Positions 5,327 through 8,911 of a stretch of DNA of 11,086 nucleotides are shown here, piece after piece. A program made the translations under genes and the position numbers. The notes beneath the pieces are model-generated. The model saw nothing but the letters and a program-made list of their open reading frames with translations. It was not told the origin of the DNA and made no database searches. The number at the start of each line of letters is the position of its first letter. The first letter of the stretch is position 1. This DNA is from Candidatus Rokuibacteriota bacterium (GTDB lineage: Bacteria > Methylomirabilota > Methylomirabilia > Rokubacteriales > JACPHL01): the NCBI GenBank assembly GCA_016188625.1, contig JACPHL010000008.1, positions 22,117-33,202 on the forward strand, written 5' to 3'.

Positions 5327-8300
5327 CTACCCCCGACGGTCGAGCCGTTCGCGTGACGCCGGCTCCTCGGGCGGCCCGGGGGACACCGGCGAGGGCGCGT
5401 GCACGGGGCCATCGGGATGGAGATCCCCGCCCGCGCCCGTCCAGGCCACGGGGCTCTCCGGCAGGGAGGTCGCCACCGCGGCCGGCGCGGGCGCGGGGAC
5501 GCGACCTCGGCGGAGCAGGGCGCGGAGATCGTCGAGGAACGAGTAGGCGACGGGGGTCGCGAGGAGCGTCAGGAGCAGCGAGAGGGTCTGGCCGCCGATG
5601 ATGACCACGGCGATCGCGCGGCGCTCCTCGGCGCCTGGGCCGGTGCCGACGGCGATGGGGATCATCCCGGCCACGAAGGTCAGGGTGGTCATGAGGATCG
5701 GCCGGAGCCGGTCGCGATTGGCCTGGAGGATCGCGCTCGCCCGGTCCATCCCCGCGGCGCGGAGCTGGTTGGTGTGGTCGATCTGGAGGATGGCGTTCTT
5801 CTTGACGACGCCGAAGAGCACCAGGATGCCGAGGGCCGAGTAGAGGTTCAGGGTGTTGCCGCTCAGCGCGAGTGACAGGAGCGCGAACGGCACCGAGAGG
5901 GGCAGCGACAGCAGGATCGTCAGCGGGTGGATCAGGCTCTCGAACTGCGCGGCGAGGATCATGTACATGAACACGACCGCGAGCGTGAACGCCCAGACGA
6001 ACTCCCCGAAGGTGCGCTCGAACTCCTTGGCCCGCCCCGAGACGGTGGTGGTGTACCCCTCGGGCAGGCCCATGCGCGCGACCTCCGCGCGCAGGGCCTC
6101 GACCCGGTCGGCCAGCGCGTAGCCCGGCGCGACGTTGGCCCTGAGCCGCGCCTCCCGCTGCCGGTCCAGCCGGTCGATGCGCGAGGCCCCGTGGGCGGGC
6201 TCGACCGTCACCAGGTTGTCCAGCCGCACGAGCCCGCCGCCCGTGCGGGGGACATAGAGGTGCGAAATCGCGGCGGGGTCGTCCCGGTCCTCCGGACGCA
6301 GGCGGAGCTGCACGTCGTACTCGTCGTTGACCGACGGGTCGTAGAAGCGCGTGACCTCCGCGTCGCCGCCCACCATCAGGCGGAGCGCCGTGGCGATGTG
6401 CGCGGTGTCCACGCCGAGGTCGGCGGCGCGCGCCCGGTCGATCTGGACCCTCAGCTCGGGCTTGTCGAGCTTGAGGGTGGTGTCCGCGTCCATGAGGCCC
6501 AGCGCCTCCGATCGCTCGCGGAGCCGCTCGGCGTAGCCGGCGAGCGCCGCCAGGTCCGGGCCGCGCACGACGAAGTCGATGTCGATGAAGCCGCCCACGA
6601 ACCTGAACCCGGACGGGTTCCGCACGGCCACGCGGAGGTCACCCCGGTACTTCCGGAGCCGCTGGCGCACCTCCTGCATGACGTCCTGCTGGGAGTAGTT
6701 GCCCCGGAAGGCCTCCCCCGGGTCGCCGCGGACGAGGCCACGGGCGAGACGGGAGAGGGAGAAGGCGCGCCCCTCGTGCGGCGCGAGCTGGACGTACATC
6801 CGGGCTTCGTTGACCCCGCCGAGGAAGGAGCCGCCCACGGAGGTCAGGACCGTCCGCACGCCGCGGGCGGCGCGCACCCCGGCCTCCACGCTTCGCACGA
6901 TCTCATCCATGGCGGCCAGGCCGGTGCCCTGGGGCGCGTTGATCCGCACCTCGAACTCGCCCTCGTCCACCCCGCTAGGCAGGTACTCCTTGCCGACCGT
7001 CCGGTAGAGCGGGACCGCCGCCGCGACCACGGCCAGCGAGAGCAGAGCGACCAGCGCCCGGTGCCGCATGGCGAAGGTGAGGGTGGCCGCGTAGGCACGG
7101 TCCAGCCGGGCGTAGAAGCCACGACGAGAGCGGGGGGCGGCGTCGTCGTCCCGGGCCCCGACCCTCAGGAGCCGGGCGCTCATCATGGGCGTGAGGGTAA
7201 AGGAGACCAGCAGGCTCACCATGACCGCCACGCCCGCGGTGAGCCCGAACTGGAAGAGGAACCGACCGGAGATGCTGGACATGAAGGAGACCGGGACGAA
7301 GATGACCACCAGCGAGAGCGTGGTGGCCGTGACGGCCAGGCCGATCTCCGCCGTGGCCGCGCGCGCCGCCTCGGCCGGGCGCATCCGCTTCTCCTCGATG
7401 AAGCGGAAGGTGTTCTCCAGGACGACGATGGCGTCGTCGATGACCACCCCCACCATCAAGACCAGGGCGAGCATCGTCACGCTGTTGAGCGTGAAGTCGA
7501 GTGCCCGCATCATCCCGAAGGTCGCGATCAGCGAGGCCGGGATGGCCACGGCCGCGATCAGCATCGAGCGCCAGCTCCGCATGAAGGCCAGGACGACCAA
7601 CGAGGCCAGAATGCTGCCCAGCACCAGGTGGACGTTGATCTCGTGGAGCGCCGCGTAGATGTACCGCGACTGGTCCTGGATCACCTCCATGCGGACGGCC
7701 GGCGGCAGCTCGGGCGCCAGGTTCGTCAGCGCCGTCTTCACCCCCTCGATGACCGCCACCGTGTTGGCACCCGACTGGCGCCGCACCTCGAGGACGACCG
7801 CGGGCGCGCCGTTCAGCCGCGCCAGCGAGCGCTGTTCCTTGGCGTCGTCCTCGGCCCGACCGATGTCGCGGATGCGGATCGGCGCGCGGTTGACGGTGGT
7901 GATGACCAGGTCGTTGAACGCGGCGGCGTCGGTCAGCCGCCCCATGGTCCGCAGGGAGTACTCCCGCGCCCGCCCCGTCACGTTGCCGCCCGGCACGTCC
8001 GCGTTCTGACGGATCAGGGCCTCGCGCACCGCCGTGATCGGGATCTGGTAAGCCGCCAGCCGATGCGCGTCCACCCAGACGCTGATCGCCCGCTCGAGCC
8101 CGCCGACGATCTGCACCTCCCCGACGCCCGCGGAGCGCTCGAGCCGGGGCTTCACGCCCTTGTCCGCCAGCTCGGTGAGTTCCCGGATGGTGCGGTGGCC
8201 CGAGAGGGCGACCGTCATCACCGGGACGGACTCGTTGTCGAACTTGGAGACGACCGGGGGCTCGGTGTCCTGGGGGAGCCTCCGGATGGCGGCGGCGACC

Positions 8301-8635
8301 CGATCCCGCACGTCCTGCGCGGCGGCGTCGATATCCCGGTCCAGGCCGAACGTGACGATCACGATGGAGCGACCCGCGCCGGAGATCGAGCGCAGCTCTT
8401 CGACCCCCTCCACCGTGTTGACCGCCTCCTCGATCCGCTGGGAGATCTGGATCTCCACCTCCTCGGTGGAGGCGCCGGGCAGCTCCGTGCGGATCGTGAC
8501 CGTGGGGAGGTCGACGGCGGGGAAGCGGTCAACGCCGAGGCGGAACCACGAGGCCGCGCCGACCACGACGAGGGACAGCACGAGCATGGCGGCGAAGACC
8601 GGCCGCCGGATGCAGATCTCGGCGAGCTTCTGCAC
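5327..8635 (-). CDS. RND-family efflux pump, HAE1/AcrB type inner-membrane protein
   Basis: Proton-driven trimeric pump that exports hydrophobic compounds, 1102 residues against about 1030-1050 for AcrB. It is complete: first membrane helix (about 13-30), FPAVDLPTV (38-46), two periplasmic porter halves, and the membrane cluster from 336 to 482. The relay pair Asp400-Asp401 sits in GVVIDDAIVVLEN, and Lys946 in VVKKNAIL corresponds to AcrB Lys940. The family's four proton-relay charges thus look intact. The extra length is a 58-residue tail (1045-1102), rich in Pro and Ala, of no known fold. Start is GTG at 8635 with GAGG five bases upstream. No membrane-fusion protein or outer-membrane channel is adjacent; upstream is a fold-back element. 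Substrate cannot be told. Confidence 0.95.
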   Translation of the reverse strand: MQKLAEICIRRPVFAAMLVLSLVVVGAASWFRLGVDRFPAVDLPTVTIRTELPGASTEEVEIQISQRIEEAVNTVEGVEELRSISGAGRSIVIVTFGLDRDIDAAAQDVRDRVAAAIRRLPQDTEPPVVSKFDNESVPVMTVALSGHRTIRELTELADKGVKPRLERSAGVGEVQIVGGLERAISVWVDAHRLAAYQIPITAVREALIRQNADVPGGNVTGRAREYSLRTMGRLTDAAAFNDLVITTVNRAPIRIRDIGRAEDDAKEQRSLARLNGAPAVVLEVRRQSGANTVAVIEGVKTALTNLAPELPPAVRMEVIQDQSRYIYAALHEINVHLVLGSILASLVVLAFMRSWRSMLIAAVAIPASLIATFGMMRALDFTLNSVTMLALVLMVGVVIDDAIVVLENTFRFIEEKRMRPAEAARAATAEIGLAVTATTLSLVVIFVPVSFMSSISGRFLFQFGLTAGVAVMVSLLVSFTLTPMMSARLLRVGARDDDAAPRSRRGFYARLDRAYAATLTFAMRHRALVALLSLAVVAAAVPLYRTVGKEYLPSGVDEGEFEVRINAPQGTGLAAMDEIVRSVEAGVRAARGVRTVLTSVGGSFLGGVNEARMYVQLAPHEGRAFSLSRLARGLVRGDPGEAFRGNYSQQDVMQEVRQRLRKYRGDLRVAVRNPSGFRFVGGFIDIDFVVRGPDLAALAGYAERLRERSEALGLMDADTTLKLDKPELRVQIDRARAADLGVDTAHIATALRLMVGGDAEVTRFYDPSVNDEYDVQLRLRPEDRDDPAAISHLYVPRTGGGLVRLDNLVTVEPAHGASRIDRLDRQREARLRANVAPGYALADRVEALRAEVARMGLPEGYTTTVSGRAKEFERTFGEFVWAFTLAVVFMYMILAAQFESLIHPLTILLSLPLSVPFALLSLALSGNTLNLYSALGILVLFGVVKKNAILQIDHTNQLRAAGMDRASAILQANRDRLRPILMTTLTFVAGMIPIAVGTGPGAEERRAIAVVIIGGQTLSLLLTLLATPVAYSFLDDLRALLRRGRVPAPAPAAVATSLPESPVAWTGAGGDLHPDGPVHAPSPVSPGPPEEPASRERLDRRG

Positions 8636-8643
8636 AATAGCCT

Positions 8644-8826
8644 CTAGCCGGGCTTATTCATGAACGGCTTCCCGCGAGGCGGACGGGTCCTGTCGCGCCG
8701 GGCAGCCACACGCGGCTCGCCACCCCCGCCCGGGGTGGGGTCCCCCGTCACTCCGCGGGGGGCGCCCCGCCCGGCGCGCCACCCGGCCGCCGTCCGCTGG
8801 CGGCGTTCATGAATAACCCCCGCTAG
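8644..8826. mobile_element. Fold-back (MITE-like) element of 183 bp with imperfect terminal inverted repeats
   Basis: The ends 8644-8668 and 8802-8826 are inverted copies matching at 22 of 25 positions. Both begin CTAG at the outer edge and contain TTATTCATGAACG. The inversion continues inward as GCGGACGG (8679-8686) against CCGTCCGC (8790-8797), and CGCGCCGGGC (8694-8703) against GCCCGGCGCG (8769-8778). The whole element can therefore fold into one long hairpin. The centre holds further stems: CCACCCC/GGGGTGG (8720-8738) and GCGGGG/CCCCGC (8755-8770). Both flanks read CCT just outside the CTAG ends (8641-8643 and 8827-8829), a possible 3-base target duplication. There is no coding capacity. 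Size, inverted ends and lack of genes fit a non-autonomous element; the mobilising transposase is unknown. Confidence 0.6.
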
Positions 8827-8911
8827 CCTACCACACTATGGGTCCGCCTCTCGGGGGGTTCATGAATAACCCCCGCTAGCCTACCACACTATGGGTCCGC
8901 CTCTCGGGGGG
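8806..8911. repeat. Exact tandem duplication of a 53-bp unit
   Basis: Bases 8806-8858 and 8859-8911 are identical. Each unit starts TTCATGAATAACCCCCGCTA, the right end of the fold-back element, and continues with 32 bases of flanking DNA ending in six G. Identity over the full unit implies a recent event or active maintenance. Confidence 0.9.
8854..8874. repeat. Perfect hairpin at the junction of the two 53-bp units
   Basis: GGGGGTT (8854-8860) and AACCCCC (8868-8874) form a 7-base-pair stem with the loop CATGAAT. It exists only because the second unit follows the G-run of the first. It could serve as a terminator-like structure for the operon coming from the right, or be a by-product of the duplication. 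Confidence 0.5.

Follow-up and report, generated by a model that had tools for sequence, protein, structure and literature searches.

The palindromic block at 8644–8826 of the window (by which we mean the whole stretch of 11,086 nt that was analysed) is, on the basis of sequence comparison, very probably a MITE of 175 bp within a 4-bp YTAR target duplication, with 19–20-bp terminal inverted repeats (TIRs) of the IS1380 family, and would be moved in trans by an IS1380-type transposase. The assignment to this transposase follows from the ends and their CTAG, which are common to insertion sequences carrying PF13701 and to no control locus outside the family. The block is short (within 30–300 bp), lacks a transposase ORF, belongs to a multicopy and dispersed family, and has TIRs like those of insertion sequences and a target duplication with empty sites. 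It also has the ends and the target duplication of the IS1380 family, as seen in the 8 of 30 PF13701 loci with paired ends. Mobilisation in trans is the part of this reading that we infer.

Geometry and Fold of the Block

The element proper lies at 8648–8822 (175 bp), with a copy of CTAG on either side. The left copy (8644–8647) is one of a pair that is double in filled sites, single in empty sites, and varies together on both sides in other copies; the right copy (8823–8826) was recognised in the same way, from the covariation of the two sides and from empty sites. The left TIR, CCGGGCTTATTCATGAACG, occupies 8648–8666 on the plus strand, and the same sequence ends IS1380-family insertion sequences, while the right TIR (8804–8822, minus strand) was defined by inverted-repeat search and end alignment. 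An inverted repeat of 23 nt at 91% spans 8644–8666 and 8804–8826, and 22 of 25 positions pair when the outermost 25 nt of the 183-bp block are compared, exactly as the original prediction had counted them. The further paired blocks and GC-rich centre with stems that it described are also present, as 8691–8703/8769–8781 and as a palindrome at 8753–8774. One strand of the block folds to -68.6 kcal/mol (DNA fold) against -49.6 ± 3.7 for shuffled sequences (z -5.2), and none of 200 shuffles folds as well, which bears out the view of the 183 bp as a near-continuous inverted repeat.

The 175-bp element contains no transposase ORF, and a scan with consensus sequences found neither a promoter nor an intrinsic terminator in it. 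The window holds three occurrences of TTATTCATGAAC, where 0 are expected. Together with 31 bp of flank, the right end of the MITE forms a tandem duplication of two identical copies of exactly 53 bp (8805–8857 and 8858–8910), the second of which again comprises the right TIR, CTAG and the 31-bp flank; this duplication arose later than the element. On the other side, an RND efflux pump gene (ACR_tran, 5327–8635, minus strand; Pfam PF00873, E 5e-258), which lies outside the element, has its start codon 8 bp from the left CTAG. A gene for the membrane-fusion partner of the pump is not apparent upstream within the window.

Copies, Target Duplication and Empty Sites

In the genome that contains the window (G000), a 2.6-Mb draft that is 84% complete and the sole member of its family, 14 copies reach at least 130 bp, with identities of 81–100%, and there are fragments besides. 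Several of these copies are broken by contig ends, as is expected of repeats. Of 59 genomes in the order, 34 contain matches, so that the dispersed copies with conserved ends that were predicted for a non-autonomous transposon are found, and a single-copy occurrence in all genomes is ruled out. Plasmid records contained no DNA resembling the element. The copies adjoin unrelated genes in both orientations, and this bears directly on the idea that the block serves the RND pump gene as a transcribed leader or riboswitch present once only. Its position 8 bp ahead of the pump start codon and its covarying pairs would suit this idea, but the dispersal beside unrelated genes, together with the lack of any Rfam match at E 1, leaves this idea with a negligible probability.

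Among relatives, the consensus of the family reads CTAG-CCnGGATTATTCATGAACG, followed by the interior, the inverted copy of the end and CTAG. The outer four bases are the same on both sides of a given copy, being mostly CTAG/CTAG, TTAG/TTAG in two loci (L003 and L080) and CTAA/CTAA in one (L083). Because these four bases co-vary on the two sides, they constitute a 4-bp target duplication, YTAR, which lies outside the repeat. The CTAG noted at both edges in the original prediction is therefore a real target duplication. The CCT that was noted just outside both edges is present as well, but it is coincidental: other copies lack it, and the word that is duplicated, and that empty sites hold once, is YTAR (here CTAG) instead of CCT.

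Empty sites were sought in relatives with the flanks joined around one YTAR. Three orthologous loci without the element were found in two sister species, and two of these show a single YTAR, with flanks 89–99% identical. At the site corresponding to L080 (L121, in G033), the element is absent, there is one TTAG, and the flanks are 99% identical over 183 bp; at that corresponding to the second element of L072 (L123, in G019), the element is likewise absent and there is one CTAG. The third empty site corresponds to L089 (L151, also in G033). Sites that lack the element and hold a single YTAR identify the filled sites as insertions. Both the target duplication and the empty sites were established on the copies of relatives, the genome of the window copy being alone in its family.

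Full-Length Insertion Sequences with These Ends

The same TIRs are found, inverted around one long ORF and with YTAR outside, in 8 of 30 PF13701 loci from the genomes in which the short element had been sought. These full-length elements measure 1530–1697 bp and have an ORF of about 470 aa, and a scan of two of their transposase proteins gave PF13701 matches at E 1e-123 or better. Paired ends were never found in shuffled sequences (0 in all shuffles). As an unbiased check, bare TIRs were scanned in one genome per species. The closest end pairs, of which there were many, lie 67–284 bp apart, except for one pair at 1691 bp (L210, Verrucomicrobia), which encloses an IS1380-type transposase at 43–44% identity. 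A transposase gene flanked by the same ends, which was the third expectation for a mobile element, is thus found. The bare-TIR scan also located elements in Nitrospira, Gammaproteobacteria, Myxococcales, Planctomycetes, Kiritimatiellae, Verrucomicrobia, Acidobacteria and others.

IS5-group and IS630 elements use CTAG-like targets as well, and for this reason we considered that the MITE might belong to a different transposase family, one whose targets are YTAR or TA. This is very improbable, since full-length elements with exactly these ends encode PF13701 transposases, and the ends are missing from every PF01609 locus that is not of the IS1380 group. In the PF01609 control, the ends were present at four loci only, all of which are the same IS1380 elements reached via a cross-hit, and PF01609 (IS4/IS5-type) transposases were accordingly rejected as the source.

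The 84% complete draft of the window's own genome yielded no PF13701 gene; a matching gene would be expected there, if not strictly required, for a MITE that is currently mobile. Most of the MITE-rich relatives likewise had no intact PF13701 gene. Multi-copy insertion sequences are often missing from metagenome bins. The element and the full-length insertion sequences have only their ends in common, and the element is therefore not a simple internal deletion of one of them. The mechanism that we propose for an IS1380-type MITE begins with a full-length IS1380-family element that would supply the transposase, either within the cell concerned or in a previous one. This enzyme would bind both TIRs and then excise or copy the element, which would be joined at a CTAG-like site with duplication of 4 bp.

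Inverted repeats of the IS1380 family begin with CC. A second IS1380 subgroup, of 1511 bp, was seen at L104 (184–1694), L120 (1346–2856) and L415 (965–2475), and its ends read YTA(A/G)CCCC(A/G)ATCCGAAAAT, also written YTA(A/G)CCCCAATCCGAAAATA. Separately, another MITE interior (CGTAGCGAGG...GCAGTAGA) occurs with the same IS1380-type ends as the present element (L182, L187–L189, L191, L213, L222, L225 and L227), and is common to Gammaproteobacteria, Acidobacteria, Nitrospirae and Planctomycetes.

Siting at Stop Codons

In 22 of 32 complete elements, the duplication has as its TAG or TAA exactly the stop codon of an adjoining gene, whereas among the other CTAG sites of these loci the figure is 59 of 244 (Fisher p 1e-6; the gene calls came from a codon-usage caller for which six genes of the window were the training set). 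The window copy is outside this set, and sits before a start codon. Because CTAG, TTAG and CTAA each contain TAG or TAA and are duplicated on insertion, the stop of the neighbour stays intact. Insertion at a gene's own stop codon would thus regenerate the stop, and most surviving copies sit there. The simplest reading of the siting is selection, with both neighbours left intact and the stop regenerated.

The Core Hairpin

The interior of the element is a conserved hairpin and no remnant of the transposase gene; it would be carried as a passenger or as structural cargo. The core, GGGTCCTGTCGC...GCGCCACCC, covers 100 nt (8685–8784, plus strand) and has an invariant asymmetric internal loop, GGGT-CCTGT-CGC/GCG-CC-ACCC, in which CCTGT faces CC. 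The stems outside and inside this loop change in sequence and keep their pairing (28 double-changed cells vs 7.6 in shuffles; 0 of 500 shuffles). A full match to covariance model R1, which comprises the core hairpin and an outer stem, extends over 8671–8798 (plus strand) at 90.8 bits, the model having been built from 16 sequences with that of the window among them. The covariance model of the core has matches in 23 of 388 genomes, 22 of these in the same order or class. Rfam contains no family that matches the element or the core, either at the gathering score or at E up to 1, and a known Rfam structured RNA was accordingly rejected.

The core is found in several settings. MITEs with the present ends contain it, one from a Gammaproteobacterium (L178) among them, and it occurs in MITEs with ends like those of the second IS1380 subgroup (L294–L298, L310, L315 and L317), and within further inverted repeats in two genomes (G025 and G028). 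It is also found naked, without any TIR (naked or other-family copies are among L244–L263 and L294–L333). Naked cores often start no more than 15 nt from a stop codon, with 22 in the sense and 11 in the antisense orientation vs 8 beside a start, as counted by eye with orthologous copies counted separately. At orthologous sites, the core may be kept with compensatory stem changes (L280 vs L427), be in the opposite orientation, as if flipped between inverted flanks (L360 in G033:C53 vs L428 in G037:C112), or be missing from one of the two (L369 vs L431). Since it occurs with the present ends, with the second ends or with none, and is kept, inverted or absent at orthologous sites, the core behaves as a separable module. 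A sense-only RNA role of the naked core was considered and is not established, given that 22 vs 11 corresponds to p 0.08 and that one orthologous site is flipped.

These features recall a REP- or BIME-like palindrome that is moved as a single-strand hairpin by a Y1 (RAYT/IS200-type) transposase; a REP-type palindrome family was the alternative that the original prediction had offered. The strong hairpin with its conserved internal loop, its dispersed and extragenic position, and the cores that lie without TIRs beside stop codons are all in keeping with such a family. The element as a whole, however, is bounded by 19-bp TIRs and by a 4-bp target duplication for which clean empty sites exist, and Y1_Tnp is absent from the window's own genome and from most core-rich genomes (the core-bearing G000, G024, G025, G033, G046, G048, G059 and G082 all lack it). 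Mobilisation of the core by a RAYT-type enzyme has no support, and we regard a REP-type origin of the whole element as very improbable. The other suggestion made at the outset, a non-autonomous transposon, is upheld by the dispersed copies with conserved ends, the 4-bp duplication with empty sites and the transposase genes within the same ends.

Within the IS1380-type MITE, the core may, on a tentative reading, itself be a structured element that has not been described before, whether a motif of RNA 3' ends or a hairpin that is mobile. It would have been captured by MITEs with different IS1380-family ends and would persist alone right behind stop codons, where related species could differ by its gain, its loss or its flipping.

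Relation to Known Systems

The eukaryotic piggyBac, a relative of IS1380, has a TTAA target, ends that start with CC, and MITE derivatives; unlike it, the present element is bacterial and its target is YTAR, not strictly TTAA. IS1380 serves as the outgroup of piggyBac (PMC10813416), and is itself a known insertion sequence family (PMC3281130, PMC9330008). The full-length elements described here (1690–1697 bp, with 19–20-bp inverted repeats) resemble members of this family (ISEcp1, ISPme1, IS1247) in their PF13701 transposase, and are close to IS1247, which has 1672 bp, 16-bp inverted repeats and a 5-bp direct repeat (PMC3281130). The present element differs from the family in that it lacks a transposase, and the target duplication here is 4 bp, YTAR.

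MITEs are defined as multicopy elements of 30–300 bp that have TIRs like those of insertion sequences and a target duplication, lack an ORF and are foldable (PMC4133298). The present element fits the same definition as the bacterial MITEs, such as Correia elements, RUP, TIMEs and MITEAba12, but differs from them in its IS1380-type ends and in a core that is common to MITEs with second ends and to naked copies. With the REP/BIME sequences and their RAYTs it shares extragenic hairpins with a conserved stem irregularity; it differs in having no association with a Y1 transposase and in the TIRs and target duplication of the whole element, and the core (58–190 nt) is longer than REP. A literature search whose coverage excluded most subscription papers and ISfinder found no IS1380-derived MITE, hence we claim no priority; it also found no report of IS1380 with CTAG repeats. 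MITEs derived from insertion sequences and the IS1380 family are already known; the spread across phyla and the core common to different ends set the present element apart from a plain further member.

The finding raises the question of why the same internal loop is present in MITEs with different ends and at plain gene ends. It also suggests a route by which a transposon may be harmless, namely insertion at CTAG-type stop codons with the stop regenerated by the target duplication. One transposase family is now tied to unnamed short palindromes of Rokubacteria, Nitrospira, Gammaproteobacteria, Myxococcales, Planctomycetes, Acidobacteria and the Verrucomicrobia/Kiritimatiellae group.
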